Below are positions 1 through 30,148 of a stretch of 64,000 nucleotides of DNA, piece after piece; the stretch's first letter is position 1; each line of letters starts with the position of its first letter. Below the pieces are notes generated by a model. That model saw nothing but the letters and a program-made list of their open reading frames with translations, was not told where the DNA came from and searched no databases. The position numbers were made by a program, and so were the translations under genes. This DNA comes from a virus, in the IMG/VR virus record IMGVR_UViG_3300022752_000036, positions 1 to 64,000 of that record; one strand, 5' to 3'.

Positions 1-356
1 TTGAATCCATTCTCTCTATCAAATAGCATGAAGTCCATCTCTACAATATTAAAAGTATCTTTAATTATAGATAATACTAGATCTAATTCTAGTCGACCAC
101 AAGTATATAGATCTAATTGAAGATGACTTGGATCTACCTCATCCCAGATATGAAAGGCAATATGGCTAGTCTCTATCATAACGATAGCAGTTAAGCCTTT
201 GTTGCCGTCTTTGTCCACATAGCTTGCAAATGGACCCTTTATAATCTTCATGTCGATCTTATTGACCAGATTGGTCAGAAAATCGATTCCCTCTTGTTCT
301 GTAGCAATTGGGTTCTTTACCTTGGCATTTACCAATAAATGTTTATGATATATCAT
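1..356 (-). CDS. speD: S-adenosylmethionine decarboxylase-like protein (3' end beyond window)
   Basis: Read directly from the minus strand: ATG at 356 after a strong ribosome site (TAAGGAGA), open for 118 codons to the window edge. Residues 62-86 carry the bacterial AdoMet decarboxylase core: Ser64 (the family's self-cleaving, pyruvoyl-forming serine), His69 and Cys86 in the motif TCG, with nearly the spacing of the bacterial enzyme (63/68/83). The residue before Ser64 is Thr rather than the usual Glu, with a Glu one place earlier. AdoMet decarboxylase makes the aminopropyl donor for spermidine; some homologs, including phage ones, have changed to arginine or ornithine decarboxylation, so the substrate is open. 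It is the last gene seen in the accessory region. Confident of the family, not of the substrate. Confidence 0.8.
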   Translation of the reverse strand, partial: MIYHKHLLVNAKVKNPIATEQEGIDFLTNLVNKIDMKIIKGPFASYVDKDGNKGLTAIVMIETSHIAFHIWDEVDPSHLQLDLYTCGRLELDLVLSIIKDTFNIVEMDFMLFDRENGF

Positions 357-2264: not shown

Positions 2265-2960
2265 CTATTTATATTCTTTTCTATTCCAATAGTTGCTTTT
2301 GTAGTATCCTCTTATCTTAGATCTACTTTTAATATCTTGTATCATGCCTTGTTTACTTAATGATTCGTCTATCTCTGAGCTCCAAGACTCTCTTTTAAAT
2401 GGAATAATTTGAATTATTGGGGTTCCCGCCTCAATAATTCCTTCAAAATCTTTTTTAAGGGCAAATGGCTGACGACCCCAAACGCCCCAGTTGTCTGTAT
2501 CCATCACTCCTGTTGTTGTTATAAATGGAAGATCAGTTCTATTAAATGGCTGTGTCAGTAAACAACTGTATCCTTTTGGAGTTTTAATTCCCCAATGAGA
2601 TTGCCAAGAAAATATGAATGGGTGAAAGTTTTTATACATAGGAATTTCATATATTGGATCTCTTTGCACAACCTCTGCAAGATCATCGTATGTATGATTC
2701 CATGAAACGTAAGGCAAACCATTTACCTGCTTAACAAATACATCTGCCCATAAATTAAAGGTATAACCAGTTGAATATGAGTCTATAAATGGTATACAGC
2801 TTTTAACAGAATAGTTAGATTGACCACCGTACACATTTAACTCAGTATCACCATTAGTATAGTTTGGTATATCTTTAAACCAACTTGGTATACGTGCTGG
2901 CTGAGGACATGGAATAATCTCCTTAACCAGGTCGTTCTTGGGATAGAATTTAATTTTCAT
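2265..2960 (-). CDS. phage protein, paralog family member A (231 aa)
   Basis: Clearly homologous along its length to the next gene upstream (2957-3661). Shared blocks: an N-terminal IPxW(F/Y)K, then KxCxPxxD and TGY, a GYSC block, DTD, and a C-terminal block reading FEGxIEAGTPI followed by QxIPFKRES. These conserved Trp, Asp and Pro positions indicate a structured soluble domain, possibly beta-rich. The start overlaps the upstream stop (ATGA). I recall no defined function for the family; no signal peptide or membrane helix. It could be a minor virion or host-modifying protein, but nothing here decides it. Confidence 0.8.
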   Translation of the reverse strand: MKIKFYPKNDLVKEIIPCPQPARIPSWFKDIPNYTNGDTELNVYGGQSNYSVKSCIPFIDSYSTGYTFNLWADVFVKQVNGLPYVSWNHTYDDLAEVVQRDPIYEIPMYKNFHPFIFSWQSHWGIKTPKGYSCLLTQPFNRTDLPFITTTGVMDTDNWGVWGRQPFALKKDFEGIIEAGTPIIQIIPFKRESWSSEIDESLSKQGMIQDIKSRSKIRGYYKSNYWNRKEYK

Positions 2961-3661
2961 TTATATTCTTTTCTTGCCCAGAATGTGTTACGGTATGCGT
3001 CAAATAGCTTTGCAGCAATTGTCCTTTGATTCTTAAAATTTCTTTTTTTATCTAATGGCACTATCTCCATATGATACGATTCTCTTTTAAATGGAATAAC
3101 TTGAGCAATTGGAGTCCCCGCCTCTATCATTCCCTCAAAATATTTATCTTTTAGATTAAAGGGAAGAGCAACCTTTTCATAATAAGTATCTGTGTCAACT
3201 ATTCCAGGTAGGATTACAATCTGATTGTCTCTGTGCATTGGAGGCAAAAACATACATGAGTACCCTGGCTCTGTTTTTATGATCCATGGGTTCTCTATTT
3301 TTAATTGATAGCCTAGGTTATTTTCTGGATGATTCTGTACTTGAAATGGAGCATGACTACTCAAGACATCAGTATCTTTTTGAGTACCGCCTTCAGACCT
3401 CCAGTGGAAATAAGGTCCATTTTCTGTTTGTTCTATATAAAAATCTTGTTGTAATACAATCATATACCCAGCAGTCATTGCATCAAATACTGGAACGCAC
3501 TTCTTTATTGTGCTGAATGGTTGATCTTTTAATGGCTTTTTTACATCGTTCGCATATGATTTAGCTTCCTTATACCAATCTGGAACAAACTTACTTGATG
3601 GCGCAGGATTATATATAGCATCTGTATCATCATATCTTGAAAACTCAATTTTTTTAGCCAT
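2957..3661 (-). CDS. phage protein, paralog family member B (234 aa)
   Basis: Tandem paralog of 2265-2960, with the same ordered motifs (IPxWYK-like VPDWYK, CVPVFDAMTAGY, GYSC, DTD, EAGTPIAQ then FKRES). The lead gene of the pair: a TTGACA/TATAAT promoter places the transcript start within a few bases of its ATG. The C-terminal tails of both paralogs end in WxRKEYK-like basic sequence. Function unknown. Confidence 0.8.
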   Translation of the reverse strand: MAKKIEFSRYDDTDAIYNPAPSSKFVPDWYKEAKSYANDVKKPLKDQPFSTIKKCVPVFDAMTAGYMIVLQQDFYIEQTENGPYFHWRSEGGTQKDTDVLSSHAPFQVQNHPENNLGYQLKIENPWIIKTEPGYSCMFLPPMHRDNQIVILPGIVDTDTYYEKVALPFNLKDKYFEGMIEAGTPIAQVIPFKRESYHMEIVPLDKKRNFKNQRTIAAKLFDAYRNTFWARKEYK

Positions 3662-7851: not shown

Positions 7852-8064
7852 TCAATTATTTTTTAATGCTTCTGCTGCTGCATTAAATCTATTCATGAAT
7901 TCTTGAATAACCCAAAAAGTTGTATCTGTAGCATTTTGCCTTAAAGCTTTTGATACTTCTTCTGTTTTTTGTTCATCAGATCCTGCGTTATACCATTTTT
8001 GATATAATTCATTAGCAATGTCTGTAATTATTCCTTCTAAAACAGTTACTTGTTTTTCACTCAC
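7852..8064 (-). CDS. hypothetical helical protein (70 aa)
   Basis: An ATG at 8076 is possible, but GTG at 8064 has GGAG six bases upstream and overlaps the subtilase stop by only eight bases, so I prefer it. All-helical, acidic, with QNATDTTFWVIQEF in the middle. No family recognised. Confidence 0.6.
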   Translation of the reverse strand: MSEKQVTVLEGIITDIANELYQKWYNAGSDEQKTEEVSKALRQNATDTTFWVIQEFMNRFNAAAEALKNN

Positions 8065-8983
8065 GAATTGCTCCATCTTGATTAATTAATCTTGCATTCT
8101 TTACTTTAGAATTGCTAGTTATTGTTGCAGTTTTTGCAATTAGATCATACATTTGAGACACAGTAAATCCTGGCTTAACAGACTTTATAGCAAGCCACTG
8201 TGCTGCTGCAATTTGAATTGATGCAGAAGTTCCAGCCAATGGAACTTTTACGTTTCCTGGACCATAAGATATTGTTGTGCCTTGTGCATAAAAATCAATA
8301 AGCTTTGAATCATAATTTGAATAGACTGCAACAGCCTTAGTCGGCATTGTTGCACCAATTGCTATTGATTCTGGAAGACAGGCTGGCCAGTTAATTCTTG
8401 ATAGATCAAAATCATTACCTGCTGGTAAAAATACTGGAATGCCAAAATCCAACAACGATTTAATCTTAGACTGAGTTACTGGGGTTCTTGGACAGTATTC
8501 TGTGCCAGCAACAAAATTTCTTGCTGATTGTGCCATTGTGACTGCCTGAATATTATATTTTGAATAGTTGTCAATTACCCATTGAAGAGCATTAAATACT
8601 GTTTGTTCTGTTGCTACTTGACGAATTCCATCAGGATTATTTCCAATGATGCGAACAAAAACAATATTCATTTCTGGATTAGTAACAGCAGCAAGATATG
8701 CCATTTGTGTTCCATGATCAAATCCATTTTTTGTAATTAGATTTGCAGGAAGAGTTGCTGCACCAGGTCCTTCTTGAATCTTTTGTCCATTTGGACATGG
8801 ACCACGCTCAAGAACACAAACTTCTTGAATAATTCTATCTTTAAAAATTGGTAGTGATGTGTCAATCGCTGTATCTAGGATTGCTATCGATGGTTTTAAA
8901 TTAGTGTTCTTCAATGAAGCATTTGCCGCTACAGGAAGAAGTAGAGTAATAGCCACTAGGGCAGTTGTTAGTTTTTTATGCAT
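8057..8983 (-). CDS. secreted subtilisin-like serine protease (S8 family)
   Basis: Residues 1-22 are a signal peptide ending ANA. The S8 catalytic set is complete and in order: Asp37 (AILDTAID), His90 (FDHGTQM), the oxyanion Asn190 (PAGND) and Ser253 (LAGTSAS). At 308 residues it is compact and lacks a long propeptide. It should be exported and cut proteins outside the membrane; possible targets are host surface proteins or incoming phage receptors (inference). A strong leaderless promoter (TTGACA, 16, TATTAT, 6, ATG) drives it. Confidence 0.9.
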   Translation of the reverse strand: MHKKLTTALVAITLLLPVAANASLKNTNLKPSIAILDTAIDTSLPIFKDRIIQEVCVLERGPCPNGQKIQEGPGAATLPANLITKNGFDHGTQMAYLAAVTNPEMNIVFVRIIGNNPDGIRQVATEQTVFNALQWVIDNYSKYNIQAVTMAQSARNFVAGTEYCPRTPVTQSKIKSLLDFGIPVFLPAGNDFDLSRINWPACLPESIAIGATMPTKAVAVYSNYDSKLIDFYAQGTTISYGPGNVKVPLAGTSASIQIAAAQWLAIKSVKPGFTVSQMYDLIAKTATITSNSKVKNARLINQDGAIRE

Positions 8984-9584: not shown

Positions 9585-10139
9585 TTATACCTGTATAAAT
9601 GAATAGGGAGCAGAAACAGCCATATTAAATGTAGCTGCTGCTTCTAGTGCCAATTTCATTCTGACCTTTGGATTCTTTTGATTTTTGGTTGCATAAAGAG
9701 CACCTAATGCTAGGAAAGCTCCGCTTCCTTCTGCCATATAATTAACTATATTCTCTGCTATATGAAAGTCTTCATCCATTGTAAAGATTCTTCCTTGAAC
9801 TCCTATTAGGAATATCCCGCCCTCATCTTCCTGTCCAGATACTTGACTACCATATCCGTGTGCTCTAAAAGCATCTTTAACTGAATCAACAAACTTTGTT
9901 CTCATAAACTTATCTAATCCAGAGTTTGTTTTAGTTGGAGTATATTTTGGTGGAGTCCAGTTGTATTGAAGGATCTGACCCATTCTGAATGAATCTGTAA
10001 ATGCTATTCCGTATTGTCCTACTTTAAAAACTTTAGGATCTTTTCTAGCAAGAATCCATCCAGTCTTATCGTCTGAGGCTGCATGATCAGCCCCCATATA
10101 AACTATCCCATTTTGGGCAATGGCTACAATACAGGTCAT
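9585..10139 (-). CDS. 20S proteasome beta-like Ntn hydrolase
   Basis: The start MTCIVAI, with Thr2 exposed after Met removal, GADHAAS, and the GGIFLIG strand fit a family of short phage and bacterial Ntn hydrolases related to the proteasome beta subunit/HslV. Thr2 would be both nucleophile and N-terminal amine. The length (184 aa) has no room for a propeptide. Actinobacteria carry proteasomes, so it might form its own ring or interfere with the host one (inference). Leaderless promoter TAGACT, 17, TATACT, 6, ATG. Confidence 0.75.
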   Translation of the reverse strand: MTCIVAIAQNGIVYMGADHAASDDKTGWILARKDPKVFKVGQYGIAFTDSFRMGQILQYNWTPPKYTPTKTNSGLDKFMRTKFVDSVKDAFRAHGYGSQVSGQEDEGGIFLIGVQGRIFTMDEDFHIAENIVNYMAEGSGAFLALGALYATKNQKNPKVRMKLALEAAATFNMAVSAPYSFIQV

Positions 10140-10924: not shown

Positions 10925-11225
10925 TAGGTACCCCTTCTAATTCGCATCTTACTCCGTAAGATTCGATTAACTTTTTAACTCTATCAACATAGTCTATAAC
11001 CATTTCTTTTTTGGTTCCTTGATACTGTATAAAATTATCTTCATATAATCTTAAAGCTAAAAAATCTGGGTACTGCACCACATCCAACATAAGGTCTGGA
11101 ACTGGTTTTTTTATTTCACGTACTTTAATTGACATTTCTTTAGTATAAAATACTGGCTTGTTTGGCTCGCCATTCCATAAATTAATTCCGTGTTTAAAAT
11201 GATCTTTATTTCCGATTAATTCCAT
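10899..11225 (-). CDS. conserved phage protein (108 aa)
   Basis: Has a YPDFLALRLYEDNF segment followed by a helix with YVDRVKKLIESYG. I believe similar proteins occur in actinophages but know no function. Overlaps the WhiB gene by 20 bases, so the two are probably co-translated. Confidence 0.65.
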   Translation of the reverse strand: MELIGNKDHFKHGINLWNGEPNKPVFYTKEMSIKVREIKKPVPDLMLDVVQYPDFLALRLYEDNFIQYQGTKKEMVIDYVDRVKKLIESYGVRCELEGVPSEKILRSS

Positions 11226-11526
11226 TTTTAATCCTAATCATTTTCCAAACCTCTGGAGTTTTATGTATATTTTTCATTTTATCTATCTCTCCGCTATTTA
11301 AATAGATTCCGCCCCATACTCCGTGTTCATTATTTTCTACTGCAGATTCATAACACATTTTTGCAACTGGACAAGATAAGCACATTTCATCTATATTTTT
11401 TGCAATATTTATATCAGACTCATATTTATCATAAAATAAATTAGTATCCATTCCTCTACAAATTGAGAGATGGTACCAATTAAATTCGTCTTTATCTGTT
11501 CCTAATTCATTTAAAATATCTGACAT
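11206..11526 (-). CDS. whiB: WhiB-family iron-sulfur transcription regulator
   Basis: Four cysteines at 23, 49, 52 and 58 (C, then CxxCxxxxxC) bind the [4Fe-4S] cluster of the Wbl family, and GVWGG at 69-73 is the family turn that meets the sigma factor. The C-terminal tail is basic. WhiB proteins are confined to actinobacteria and their phages and act with the principal sigma factor. A phage copy probably redirects host transcription, possibly at the extended -10 promoters seen here (inference). This gene is the strongest host marker in the window. Confidence 0.92.
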   Translation of the reverse strand: MSDILNELGTDKDEFNWYHLSICRGMDTNLFYDKYESDINIAKNIDEMCLSCPVAKMCYESAVENNEHGVWGGIYLNSGEIDKMKNIHKTPEVWKMIRIKNGINRK

Positions 11527-16404: not shown

Positions 16405-16587
16405 CTATTTAGGATTATCAGTCTTATAAAACCCACTACCTTTAAACTGAATTCCAAAAGAACCATACTGTTTTATCATTGCTGCACCACATTTTTCACA
16501 AAGCTCTGTCATTGTTGCTTCATTTATTGGCTTGTTAACTTCTTTAGTATGTTCACATATAATACATTTATAATCGTATGAAGGCAT
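16405..16587 (-). CDS. FmdB-type zinc-ribbon protein (60 aa)
   Basis: MPSYDYKC at the start with CIIC, then CEKCG near residue 34, followed by an FKGSGFYKTD end: the usual FmdB/putative regulatory protein pattern. One zinc ion is expected. Shares a base with the stop of the enzyme gene upstream (TAATG), so it is coupled to it. Confidence 0.8.
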   Translation of the reverse strand: MPSYDYKCIICEHTKEVNKPINEATMTELCEKCGAAMIKQYGSFGIQFKGSGFYKTDNPK

Positions 16588-17594
16588 TACTTTTCCAATC
16601 TATGATATGATTCTTTAAGGCTTGCACTTGAAACTTTAATAAATTCAGCTTCTTTAGCAAGATCAGAAAGATGTTTTACTCCTCCGTAAGAACATCCACT
16701 TGATATTGAATTCTTTATATTACTTAATGTTTCAACTACGCTTCCTTTAATTGAAACCTTACCCTCTTCTCCCTCTTTATATGGATTTTTAATGCCCATA
16801 TCAATTTGAAGATTTTCTGAAGCCAGTCCTCTGAATGCTCCAGGTTCTCCATCGCACTCTATATGTCCAGCAAATATTGATCCCATCATTACGGCGCTAG
16901 CTCCAGCAGCAAAAGCCTTTACGATATCGCCATTATTTTTAATTCCGCCATCCGCAACAATTCCATTTACACTATCATCTTTAACTCTTTTATATATATC
17001 AATTATAGATGCCAATGCTGGAACTCCAAATCCAGTATTTACTCTTGTCATACAAGCTGCTCCGCCGCCAATTCCAACTCTAACTGAATCAGCTCCAGCA
17101 TCCATCAAATTTTTATATGCACCGTATGAAGATACATTTCCAATCATTATATGAACGTCATCTGGAACAATAGATCTCAATCGTTTGACTGCATTAATTG
17201 CTTCATTTGTGTGTCCAAAAGCTGTGTCTATCAGTATTGTATTTACATGATTTTCCAATAAATATTCTACATACTTTACGGTTGAACAGTCGCTTATATT
17301 AATTGATACGCCAGCATTATTTTTTAACAATTCTATTTGTCTATGCTTTGATGATATGCTTTGATGTCTCTGAACAAAACCTAATCCGCCTTTATAAAAT
17401 ATAGATTTTAACATTTCTGTACTACTAATATATTCCATAGGAGCAATCATTACTGGTAAAGAAAATTTTTTCCATGCTTTAGGATTATTTGGATTTCCTA
17501 AGATCATAGTAGTATCAACCAATGATCTACTTTCAACATTACTATTGTCAGAAGGTACTAGCAGAACATCATCATAACATAATGATTCTTGCAT
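16587..17594 (-). CDS. GMP reductase / IMP dehydrogenase-like enzyme (335 aa)
   Basis: A single TIM-barrel domain with family motifs: YDDVLL near the start, MIAPME, the active-site loop VGIGGGAACMTR with Cys181, ADGGIKNNGDI at 214-224 and MMGSIFAG, then AFRGLAS. The Cys loop forms the thioimidate with IMP or GMP. There is no CBS domain and the length is nearer GMP reductase (about 345) than IMP dehydrogenase (about 490). The usual GxGPGSxCxT is here GxGGGAACMT. It would interconvert GMP and IMP, or feed guanine-derived DNA modification (inference). Part of the coupled nuclease-reductase-FmdB operon behind the structured leader. Confidence 0.85.
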   Translation of the reverse strand: MQESLCYDDVLLVPSDNSNVESRSLVDTTMILGNPNNPKAWKKFSLPVMIAPMEYISSTEMLKSIFYKGGLGFVQRHQSISSKHRQIELLKNNAGVSINISDCSTVKYVEYLLENHVNTILIDTAFGHTNEAINAVKRLRSIVPDDVHIMIGNVSSYGAYKNLMDAGADSVRVGIGGGAACMTRVNTGFGVPALASIIDIYKRVKDDSVNGIVADGGIKNNGDIVKAFAAGASAVMMGSIFAGHIECDGEPGAFRGLASENLQIDMGIKNPYKEGEEGKVSIKGSVVETLSNIKNSISSGCSYGGVKHLSDLAKEAEFIKVSSASLKESYHRLEK

Positions 17595-18110: not shown

Positions 18111-18530
18111 TTATTTAATTTTGATGGTCTTTGGTTTCTTTTCTTCGGGAATGTTTCTTTCCACAAAGATATCAAGAATGCCGTCTGCCATTTCAGCACG
18201 ATCTACCTCCATATACTCTCCAAGAGCAAAGGTGCGTGTGAATTTTCTAGCGGCGATACCCTTATGAAGAACTTCATGAGAAGTGTCTTCGGTTTTCTCA
18301 CCCTTGATTACTAAGCTTCCATTATCCACAGAAACCTCAACTTCGCTTTTGCTAAAACCAGCAATAGCTAAAGATAATTTGTAAGTGTCCTCGTCAATCT
18401 TTACCAAGTTATATGGTGGGTATGATTGATGAGTAGCCTCACGATGGATATGTGAAAGACGGTCCAACTCTCTGTTGAAACCAATAAAAAACGGATCATT
18501 AAAAAGATCCAATGCAAAATGTGTTACCAT
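18111..18530 (-). CDS. hsp20: Hsp20 / alpha-crystallin small heat-shock protein
   Basis: 139 aa, with the alpha-crystallin domain at about residues 38-130: YKLSLAIAGFSKSEVEVSV, LVIKGEK, RKFTRTFALGEYMEV, then ADGILDIFVERNIPEE. It ends in the basic IKIK tail (I-x-I-type anchor). AGGAGGAAT is a near-perfect ribosome site. Hsp20 proteins hold unfolding proteins; phage copies are common in aquatic phages and may aid capsid assembly or protect during infection. An own -10 box and a hairpin leader lie upstream. Confidence 0.92.
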   Translation of the reverse strand: MVTHFALDLFNDPFFIGFNRELDRLSHIHREATHQSYPPYNLVKIDEDTYKLSLAIAGFSKSEVEVSVDNGSLVIKGEKTEDTSHEVLHKGIAARKFTRTFALGEYMEVDRAEMADGILDIFVERNIPEEKKPKTIKIK

Positions 18531-26605: not shown

Positions 26606-26882
26606 TAGTCTCCGCTTCTTCTAATGCATCATCAAACTCAGCATTATATTCCATTTCCTCTGGTCTTGGAAGTCTAAAAATAAAACTTGGTCCAGATTCA
26701 TCGTAGTCAACAACTAATTCTTTATCTTTGTTGTTAGCTTCAAATAATGTTCTAGTTGGCACACTTACTTGTCCAATAGTTTCTAGTATTGAAATTAATA
26801 CCTTGCTAGCTGTTAGCTGTGCCTGAATTTCATTTACGTCAAATTCTGGCTCTTGTGTTATAGTGATTTGTTGTTCGCTCAT
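26592..26882 (-). CDS. hypothetical acidic protein (96 aa)
   Basis: Acidic at both ends with a middle helix (AQLTASKVLISILETIG) and a FIFRLPRPEEME segment. The start forms ATGA with the dnaE stop. No family known to me; the location suggests a replication accessory. Confidence 0.6.
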   Translation of the reverse strand: MSEQQITITQEPEFDVNEIQAQLTASKVLISILETIGQVSVPTRTLFEANNKDKELVVDYDESGPSFIFRLPRPEEMEYNAEFDDALEEAETNESE

Positions 26883-29800
26883 TTTATTTCCTTTATCATT
26901 AGGGTTCCATCATCCAACTTGGACAAAACTGCCCTACAATTCATACCCTCTCGCATTTTTGCAAGGGACATCTTATACATGCTTGGGAAAGCAATTGCAC
27001 GTGTAAGATCTTTATCTTTATTTGACAGAATAATATGGCTCATAGTTTTGCCAGCTTTTGTCACATAAGGAGTAAAGTTTACCACAAAGTACTCGTCTTC
27101 CGCAAGGTCATATTGCTTTCTATATAAATAATCTACAAATATATCTTTTGAGTTTGGGTCTACATCAGATACTTTTATATACCTAGCAATTCTATTATCG
27201 CCTACTAAAACAAAATACATTTGTCCTGTTTCTATTTGCGTTTGCTCATTATGGAAAAGACCTATTGATCCTGTTTCATCTACAAGCTCTACTCTTGCCC
27301 AGCCATTTCCTCTTTTAATTGATTTAACCATTCCAAACATTACAAAAGATCCTAGGTCATCAAACTCCTCAATTGGTCTGGCCTGAGCTTTAATTCTTGG
27401 GGGAATGCCTTCCAAATTAAATGTAGGTATGCCTAAATACTCATAATAATTATCTTTTTCATTACCAGTTCTTTTGTTATCATCAAATGCGGCTCCTCCA
27501 ATTGCATTCAATGCTGATACTGCTCTGCTATTAATTCCGCTACCTTTTTTAGAAGCCTTATCTATAAAGTCTGAATAATTTTTAAATGGTCTTAGAGCAA
27601 GTATTTTATTTGCAATGCTATCAGATATAAACTTAATCTCTGCCAATCCAAAAACAATTCTATCGTCTTTTAAAGAAAAATATAAGTCAGATTCATTTAT
27701 GTGTGGCAAAGATACACGCAGACCTAATCTTTTTGCTTCGATTAAATATTCTGTCCTGGCGTCTTTATCATTTTCGTTTTTAAGAATTGAAAACATAAAC
27801 TCAAGAGGATAATACTTCTTAAGCCAAGCAGTATAATAAGATAAAAGGGAGTAAGCAACAGCATGACTACGATTAAAGGAATAGCCAGCATGAGCCTCAA
27901 ACATGTGCCATAGCATCTCTGCTTGTTTCTTAGAAATGTGCTTTGAAGCCCCATCAATAAATTTATCTTTGAACTGGTCGAATTCTTTTGCATCTTTCTT
28001 TTTACCAATGATCTTGCGAACTTTATCAGCCTCAGACCAAGTCATTCCTCCTAAGTGTACGCAGGCTTGCATGACCTGCTCTTGATATATAATAACACCA
28101 TATGTATTTTCAGTAAAGGGACGCATAATGGGATGGATATATTGAACTGCTTCTTCTCCGTGCTTTCTCTTAATATACGAAGCACCTACAGTATTCATAG
28201 CTCCTGGGCGAACCAATGCGTTTGATGCTGCTAGATCTTCAAACTTATCTACTCCCATTTTAATTAATAGATTTGTATATGGTGTTGCTTCAGCCTGAAA
28301 TATTCCTTTTGTATATCCATCACTTAATGTTTTATATACAGAATCGTCATCTAGTTTTAATGCAGATAGATCTATATCCTTACCAGTCCTTTGTTTAATT
28401 GACTTTAATGTATCAGATATAACAGATAAAGTTTTTAGTCCAAGTGCGTCTAGCTTTATAAGACCTATATCTGCAACTGTATCCATGTCATAAGCAACAA
28501 CTGGAATACGGCCAGAAACTTTGTCCTGTGCATCTTCACGGGATTCTATTGGAGCATACTTTCTAATATCATCTTTAGCTACTACAACTCCTGCAGCATG
28601 TACGCCAACAGATCTAATTCGACCTCTAAGTCTTTCTGCAAGCCATGTTACTTCTGGATACTTCATTCTAAATTCTTTTGTGTTAGGAGACTCAAGATAA
28701 TCTTCAAATGTATCAACTTGTTTTAAAGCACGATTAACGTCAGACAAGGGAACCATAAATACACGAGCAGCATCACGAATAACACCTTTATCTTTAAAAT
28801 ATGTAAATGTAGAAATAGATGCAACATGTTTAAATTTCTTTTTTAAATAGTCCTTAACTTCTTTGCGACGACGGTCTTCAAAGTCCGTGTCAATATCAGG
28901 GAAGTCATTACGCTCAGGATTGATAAAACGGAAGAACAATAGGTCATATTTAATTGGATCTACGTCTGTGATACCTAGGGCATAGCAAACTAAAGATCCT
29001 GCTGCAGAACCACGGCCTGGACCAACCATTATTCCCTCATTCTTAGCCCAGTTAATCATGTCTGCTACGACCAGGAAGTAACTAGCAAAGTTTTTAGACT
29101 TGATGACTGCTAACTCTTCCTCTAAACGAGCCCTATAAGCCTCATCAGAAGCCTTCTGAAGCCTCTCTAAGCCCTTTTCAGCAAGCTCTTGTAGTCTCTT
29201 ATCGGCATCGGTTTTAGGAACTGGCAAAAGGTCTAAGCCTTGATTAAAGTCATATTCTTCTACCTTATTTGAAATTTCAATTGTATTTTCAAATATATCA
29301 GTTCTATTTATGCCAGCCTTTTTAAAGTCAGCCTCAATTTCTTCACGGCTTTGAATAAATAAATTATAATTTTGAAATGATATCTTTCTATCTGGATATA
29401 GATAATTTAATCTTTCTCCAATATCTTTGATGTTTCTAGACATATCGACGTCTGCATCTTTATCCATTTTAGGGGATGTTGATAAAATAAGCATAGCTTC
29501 TTCTAGAACTCTATCCTCTTCATTAGCAAAATGAGCATCGCCAGTAGCCACTGCTTTAATCTTTAATTCATCTGCTAATTCTAACAGCTTTTCATTTATT
29601 TCTTTTGGATTGTGAGATTGGACCTCAACGTAAAAGTCTTTGCCAAAAGTTTTAGCAAAATCTTTGAGTATAAGTTTTGCTTCTGAGAACTCCTGTTTTT
29701 CAATAGCCTTACTGACAATACCATTAAGGCATCCACTAAGTACAATAATGCCTTCCGCATATTCTTTTAATATCTCTCTATCAATACGTGGCTTGTGATA

Positions 29801-30148
29801 AAAGCCTTCGTTCCATGCCAGCTCTTGTAGTGCATGAATATTGTCTAGTCCTTTTTTATTTTTTGCAAGCAAGATTATATGATTATATGCTTGAATTGAT
29901 TTATCTGTTTTTGAAGATCTATCAAATCTATCTGTAGGAGATAGATATGCCTCTACTCCAAGTATAGGCTTGATTCCAATTTCTTTACATGCAATCTGCA
30001 TTTCTCTATGTGAAGATAATGTGCCATGATCTGTTATGGCTATTGCTGATTGCCCAGCATCTTTTGCTGCTTGTACAAGTTCGGCAGGAGAGTTAAGTCC
30101 ATCCATTAGAGAATAATATGAATGCACATGAAGATGTGTGAATGACAT
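26879..30148 (-). CDS. dnaE: DNA polymerase III alpha subunit (DnaE-like)
   Basis: 1089 aa, a little shorter than bacterial DnaE (about 1160). The N-terminal PHP domain keeps the metal motifs HLHVHS, ITDHGT and TGDAHF. The polymerase catalytic site shows GPGRGSAAGS (376-385) and PDIDTDF (417-423). Later parts include an OB-type region after residue 950 (FVMFGMVKSIKRG). It is the phage replicase, unusual compared with the PolA- or PolB-type enzymes of many siphoviruses. No clamp or clamp loader gene is seen, so it may use the host clamp. GGAGAG precedes the ATG. Confidence 0.95.
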   Translation of the reverse strand: MSFTHLHVHSYYSLMDGLNSPAELVQAAKDAGQSAIAITDHGTLSSHREMQIACKEIGIKPILGVEAYLSPTDRFDRSSKTDKSIQAYNHIILLAKNKKGLDNIHALQELAWNEGFYHKPRIDREILKEYAEGIIVLSGCLNGIVSKAIEKQEFSEAKLILKDFAKTFGKDFYVEVQSHNPKEINEKLLELADELKIKAVATGDAHFANEEDRVLEEAMLILSTSPKMDKDADVDMSRNIKDIGERLNYLYPDRKISFQNYNLFIQSREEIEADFKKAGINRTDIFENTIEISNKVEEYDFNQGLDLLPVPKTDADKRLQELAEKGLERLQKASDEAYRARLEEELAVIKSKNFASYFLVVADMINWAKNEGIMVGPGRGSAAGSLVCYALGITDVDPIKYDLLFFRFINPERNDFPDIDTDFEDRRRKEVKDYLKKKFKHVASISTFTYFKDKGVIRDAARVFMVPLSDVNRALKQVDTFEDYLESPNTKEFRMKYPEVTWLAERLRGRIRSVGVHAAGVVVAKDDIRKYAPIESREDAQDKVSGRIPVVAYDMDTVADIGLIKLDALGLKTLSVISDTLKSIKQRTGKDIDLSALKLDDDSVYKTLSDGYTKGIFQAEATPYTNLLIKMGVDKFEDLAASNALVRPGAMNTVGASYIKRKHGEEAVQYIHPIMRPFTENTYGVIIYQEQVMQACVHLGGMTWSEADKVRKIIGKKKDAKEFDQFKDKFIDGASKHISKKQAEMLWHMFEAHAGYSFNRSHAVAYSLLSYYTAWLKKYYPLEFMFSILKNENDKDARTEYLIEAKRLGLRVSLPHINESDLYFSLKDDRIVFGLAEIKFISDSIANKILALRPFKNYSDFIDKASKKGSGINSRAVSALNAIGGAAFDDNKRTGNEKDNYYEYLGIPTFNLEGIPPRIKAQARPIEEFDDLGSFVMFGMVKSIKRGNGWARVELVDETGSIGLFHNEQTQIETGQMYFVLVGDNRIARYIKVSDVDPNSKDIFVDYLYRKQYDLAEDEYFVVNFTPYVTKAGKTMSHIILSNKDKDLTRAIAFPSMYKMSLAKMREGMNCRAVLSKLDDGTLMIKEIK

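Follow-up and report, generated by a model that had tools for sequence, protein, structure and literature searches.

A candidate pyruvoyl-dependent arginine decarboxylase of the SpeD fold in a probable phage of Actinomycetota

Background

Which reaction is carried out by a phage protein whose family is named after S-adenosylmethionine (AdoMet) decarboxylase, when the Glu ahead of its cleaved Ser has given way to Thr? The question is raised by the first gene of virus record IMGVR_UViG_3300022752_000036, of which we analysed the first 64,000 bases (the window, whose base 1 is base 1 of the linear record of 95,645 bases). An earlier note had titled this gene "S-adenosylmethionine decarboxylase-like", a name that is fair for its homology but, given the NCBIfam score and the residues described below, misleading for its function. 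The note had also suggested a switch from AdoMet to arginine or ornithine. Such a switch is likely and the suggestion was apt, but the class had already been established experimentally in 2023: phage ornithine decarboxylases derived from SpeD homologues are known from LBP and UCP01-04, the enzyme of the uncultured phage UCP01 uses both ornithine and arginine, and the protein of pelagiphage HTVC201P decarboxylates arginine only, not ornithine or lysine (PMC9992855).

Results

The gene and the codons of its predicted active site lie at the edge of the record:

3..356, minus strand: first 118 codons of a SpeD homologue, a proposed pyruvoyl-dependent arginine decarboxylase (the contig edge cuts the 3' end)
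168..170, minus strand: codon of Thr63, which replaces the Glu of AdoMet decarboxylases (Thr in 80 viral relatives, 18 MAG relatives and HTVC201P)
165..167, minus strand: codon of Ser64, where self-cleavage is predicted and from which the pyruvoyl group would form (invariant; aligned to T. maritima SpeD)
150..152, minus strand: codon of His69, catalytic/processing His (invariant)
99..101, minus strand: codon of Cys86, the catalytic Cys, which lies 22 residues past Ser64 (invariant)

The reading frame starts with ATG at 356, reads down to position 3 and is open at the contig end, yielding 118 amino acids. The Pfam profile AdoMet_dc is matched at 2e-12 (47.8 bits, cut-off 25) over positions 1-106 of 107, so that nearly the entire domain is there and the tail alone is absent. 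PHROG 3125 (S-adenosylmethionine decarboxylase) is matched at 2.7e-16, and the closest solved sequences are the SpeD proteins of T. maritima and A. aeolicus. Judged by the AdoMet_dc gathering score that it passes and by its Ser/His/Cys set, the protein is a member of the SpeD superfamily. An AlphaFold model built from 35 aligned relatives (mean pLDDT 94.7) has Thermotoga SpeD 1tlu as its top Foldseek match (E 3e-07, TM 0.78), and the predicted fold is that of SpeD. This class 1b protein of T. maritima (TM0655) shares the fold and Ser/His/Cys with the window protein, but identity in the structural alignment is 15%, and its Glu and HTWPE correspond to Thr and HIWDE in the window. Completion of the gene from adjacent sequence, which the earlier note had proposed, failed: when the record ends were joined the SpeD frame had no sensible continuation into a SpeD tail, and end repeats of at least 15 bases were not found in the record. 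Because the frame is broken at the joined ends, the tail cannot be completed from this record; full-length viral relatives end at 126-182 amino acids, among them L004 (157 amino acids, 86% identical to the window protein) and L008 (128 amino acids).

The observation of a SpeD homologue was real. Ser64, His69 and Cys86 are present in a SpeD frame; the equivalent of Ser64 is kept in all 80 viral relatives and all 18 bacterial-MAG relatives, and E-T-S-H, His and Cys are invariant throughout the 80 viral proteins. The spacing, called near-identical to that of bacterial SpeD, is near but not identical, with Cys 22 residues past Ser as against 20 in both SpeD-type proteins compared. The displacement of the Glu ahead of the cleaved Ser by Thr was borne out, with Glu62 standing one residue ahead of Thr63. 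We read Thr63 as the "2-Thr" that PMC10407285 gives as a mark of SpeDC proteins, and which the assayed pelagiphage arginine decarboxylase also carries.

In an IQ-TREE phylogeny of 81 rows, with few columns for that number of rows and a bootstrap that had not settled, the window protein falls in a 100/99 clade whose other members come from HTVC201P, further pelagiphages and Gammaproteobacteria, while the SpeDC-type proteins form a separate 100/97 clade and SpeD-like sequences also stand apart. The phylogeny that the earlier note had called for thus groups the window with an assayed arginine decarboxylase, away from ornithine-type and SpeD-like sequences. Common to the clade are the Ser-Cys spacing of 22 (window, HTVC201P and 18 of 18 MAG relatives), Asp for the Pro of HTWPE, and Gln six residues before Cys. 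Identity of the window protein to its own clade outside freshwater phages is 39-50% (BLAST). With the HTVC201P enzyme (AXH71538; PMC9992855) it shares an HKH N-terminus, GNxGLT, IETSHIAFHxWDE and QLDxYTC; identity between the two is 43%, and the window has Val where HTVC201P has Gln at -5. The pelagiphage is a marine Pelagivirus of ~41 kb in which the gene adjoins ribonucleotide reductase, whereas the window phage has at least 96 kb.

We regard a pyruvoyl-dependent arginine decarboxylase, made as a SpeD-fold proenzyme in a phage of Actinomycetota, as the best explanation and a reasonably probable one. Several points speak against arginine: HTVC201P is the sole clade member with full kinetics; substrate changes are known in the SpeD fold, and the Gln at -5 is lost; no agmatinase or agmatine deiminase was found in the phage record; and UCP01, with its dual ornithine/arginine enzyme (PMC9992855), is absent from the tree.

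It is possible, though doubtful, that the protein is instead a SpeDC-like pyruvoyl-dependent ornithine decarboxylase, or a dual ornithine/arginine enzyme, by which putrescine would be made directly without host agmatine enzymes. Ornithine is decarboxylated by five other freshwater phage SpeD homologues, one of which also has clear arginine activity (PMC9992855), the Thr before Ser is common to SpeDC and the window, and the arginine- and ornithine-type Thr clades join in the tree (98/87); this join may be a long-branch effect, and the clade of window and HTVC201P is independent of it. PMC10407285 names four diagnostic residues of the ornithine type, Gln, Thr, Phe and Tyr, which we place, from the sequences, at -5, -1 and +6 from Ser and -6 from Cys. 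Val, Thr, Ile and Gln stand at the positions so inferred in the window, which therefore has one of the four. The comparison group was defined by a DNA pattern for the motif QxIETSxIxxHF, without the assayed LBP, UCP01-04 and Anaerolinea SpeDC; at least 120 viral stretches matched, and 117 of them yielded proteins of the expected kind. Gln, Thr and Phe are present in these by construction, being part of the search pattern, but 113 of the 117 have Tyr six before Cys and every one has FSC, so that the group has all or nearly all of the diagnostics where the window has Thr alone. The phage SpeDC ornithine decarboxylases (LBP, UCP02-04; the group inferred from motif) thus resemble the window protein in SpeD fold, Thr before Ser, His and Cys, and differ in Gln, Phe and Tyr, in a Ser-Cys spacing that is 20 in most SpeDC-type proteins, in clade, and in identity, which at best is 31% (BLAST) as against 43-50% within the window's own clade. 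SpeDC identity was rejected on the motif and the separate clade.

Relatives in cellular genomes bear on the substrate as well. One scan of bacterial and archaeal genomes with two short peptide patterns, which can miss relatives, found 19 of them; none was from Actinomycetota, which in such a two-pattern scan is weak evidence. The earlier note's "phage-specific" enzyme is unsupported, because relatives that look chromosomal, at 39-50% identity, occur in Gammaproteobacteria MAGs. The context set was made up of ten Gammaproteobacteria/Proteobacteria genomes, all incomplete, whose clade members look chromosomal. An agmatinase- or agmatine-deiminase-family gene is found in all ten. Two of the three agmatinase-family genes scored pass the NCBI agmatinase cut-off; most agmatine-deiminase-family matches lie far under the NCBI equivalog cut-off. 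Six combine an agmatine-deiminase-family gene with a spermidine synthase, which adjoins the relative where the neighbourhood was read, and three of these six have a class-1a-like SpeD; the other four have an agmatinase-family gene, and a credible spermidine synthase was not found in them. An ornithine/arginine PLP decarboxylase was found in none of the ten: PF02784 matches are single proteins of ~420 amino acids, both of those scored being LysA, and PF01276 has no match above cut-off. Three further genomes (G012-G014) show no clear pattern; G013, a MAG with a clade member, also has a PF02784 protein of ~645 amino acids that is perhaps SpeA. By the reasoning used in PMC10407285, a SpeD homologue together with an agmatine-using enzyme, and without another arginine/ornithine decarboxylase, points to arginine; since the ten genomes have agmatine-using genes and no other such decarboxylase was found in them, the context of the bacterial relatives points to arginine as substrate.

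The same distribution allows another, unlikely, reading: a distinct pyruvoyl decarboxylase lineage common to freshwater actinophages, pelagiphages and small-genome Gammaproteobacteria, in which the phage branch would have its own substrate range (dual arginine/ornithine or another amino acid). If so, actinophages could thereby produce polyamines inside hosts that are known chiefly to import them.

Other polyamine genes came to light in these scans. Fusions of BpsA_C (branched-chain polyamine synthase) with SpeD, ~440-470 amino acids long, occur in L149, L151, L153, L154, L158 and L159; their cleavage site reads Asn-Ser-Asn for Glu-Ser-His (NSNLVVHTWPE), and for L158 both domains are matched by Pfam. 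These genomes belong to the phylum of a Paceibacterota MAG (L089, JALQTA010000056.1), in which the product of a gene on a phage-looking contig is 84% identical to the window protein; a Pacearchaeota MAG (L102, NZDU01000042.1) likewise has a relative on a phage-looking contig. In "Microcystis phage MaAM05" (L088, MW495066.1 246755-250069), a pair of speD homologues, speE and speB follow one another in an arrangement that resembles a polyamine operon of bacteria, and this stretch of the record may be non-phage.

A true AdoMet decarboxylase that feeds a host spermidine synthase is highly improbable. It has the Pfam and PHROG family names on its side, the retained W and E of HTWPE, and the spermidine synthase in six of the ten bacterial genomes. 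However, against the NCBIfam equivalog for AdoMet decarboxylase, TIGR03330, the window protein scores 42.6 bits (cut-off 75.65) with profile positions 5-111 of 112 matched. Also below the cut-off are the complete relative L004, with 45.2, and the HTVC201P enzyme, assayed as an arginine decarboxylase, with 38.4; the SpeD of cyanophage Syn1 passes with 129.3. Cyanophage SpeD proteins such as that of Syn1 are phage-borne members of the same family, but keep ESH...HTWPE, where the window has HIWDE, and the Pro of HTWPE is replaced by Asp in the window and all 80 viral relatives. According to PMC10407285, true AdoMet decarboxylases can be told from SpeDA arginine decarboxylases by a Pro that is conserved in this part of the protein, and we take it to be the Pro of HTWPE. 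AdoMet decarboxylase identity is doubtful because of the low score and the replacement of HTWPE by HIWDE, and it was discarded as a candidate on that score together with the lost Glu and Pro; from its residues and profile score the protein is probably not an AdoMet decarboxylase. Furthermore, the class-1a-like SpeD in three of the spermidine-synthase genomes is a separate protein, and HTVC201P, the assayed clade member, left a speD mutant without spermidine (PMC9992855).

One scan recovered viral contigs with relatives, at least 93 in number, of which the best 80 (62-86% identity to the window protein) were kept. Thioredoxin and subtilase-like neighbour genes are common to the window and its relatives. 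Values of dN/dS between the window gene and eight relatives are 0.04-0.15, with dS near saturation for most pairs; the gene is under purifying selection and is a living, common gene. Many freshwater relatives (L004, L006, L011, L028, L037 and others) continue past the SpeD core for another 30-55 residues, in a C-terminal extension that varies between them (READGVxYxxYPxG...DPNxGG).

That the protein is a dead or repurposed SpeD fold, e.g. an anti-restriction factor that consumes AdoMet or a partner with a regulatory role, is scarcely credible, even though the Glu is missing and a precedent exists in T. brucei, where a dead AdoMet decarboxylase paralogue acts as activator. AdoMet-degrading phage enzymes do exist, with other folds (PMC7877911), but Ser, His and Cys are invariant in all 80 relatives, and there is an active enzyme with the same Thr among the relatives (PMC9992855).

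The host was approached through the rest of the phage genome, from which the following features are relevant or were recorded in passing:

11206..11526, minus strand: WhiB-family gene, host marker for Actinomycetota (Pfam Whib 5.2e-12, over cut-off)
window 2265-2960 (phrog_7084) and 2957-3661 (clusters with the first); record 82481-83221 and 93468-94178 (by eye): paralogue family
window 8057-8983: subtilase gene
window 9585-10139: HslV-like peptidase gene
window 16587-17594: IMP dehydrogenase/GMP reductase family gene (215.8 bits)
window 18111-18530: Hsp20 gene
window 26879-30148: bacterial-type DNA polymerase III alpha subunit with PHP domain

WhiB serves as an actinophage marker (PMC6802176, PMC10202952), and because the phage carries a WhiB gene its host is read as a member of Actinomycetota. 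Together with a GC content of 36.8% this is compatible with, though no proof of, a low-GC actinobacterial host from fresh water, and the window's relatives are likely to be carried by other phages with WhiB-type hosts. Neither a spermidine synthase nor a match to the agmatinase or agmatine deiminase families was found in the phage record, which is possibly incomplete. Apparently four paralogues of one family occur in this phage genome, and the HslV-like peptidase, subtilase and Hsp20 make up a small proteolysis/chaperone set.

Discussion

As an arginine decarboxylase, the SpeD-fold proenzyme would cut itself between Thr63 and Ser64, converting Ser64 into a pyruvoyl group with the assistance of His69 and Cys86. 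The substrate amino acid would then be joined to the pyruvoyl group as a Schiff base, and CO2 would be released. The substrate would most likely be L-arginine and the product agmatine, which host enzymes could turn into putrescine, giving a larger polyamine pool for phage DNA and translation. acI Actinobacteria are reported to carry, and partly to express, transporters annotated for spermidine/putrescine (PMC5574706), so polyamine supply may matter to both host and phage.

Beyond the known phage arginine and ornithine decarboxylases that arose from SpeD, what is new here is that a freshwater actinophage branch is placed with the arginine type and not with the ornithine type, and that it is linked to bacterial relatives with agmatine-using genes. 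The known range of phage pyruvoyl decarboxylases would thereby come to include viruses that infect Actinomycetota, probably those of fresh water, a group that ranks among the most abundant bacteria of lakes. The PHROG and Pfam label "S-adenosylmethionine decarboxylase" probably names the wrong reaction for many phage genes, and for phage proteins of either group with Thr before Ser an annotation as AdoMet decarboxylase is unwarranted without a test. The bacterial relatives, for their part, lead to a prediction from genome context that is cheap to check.
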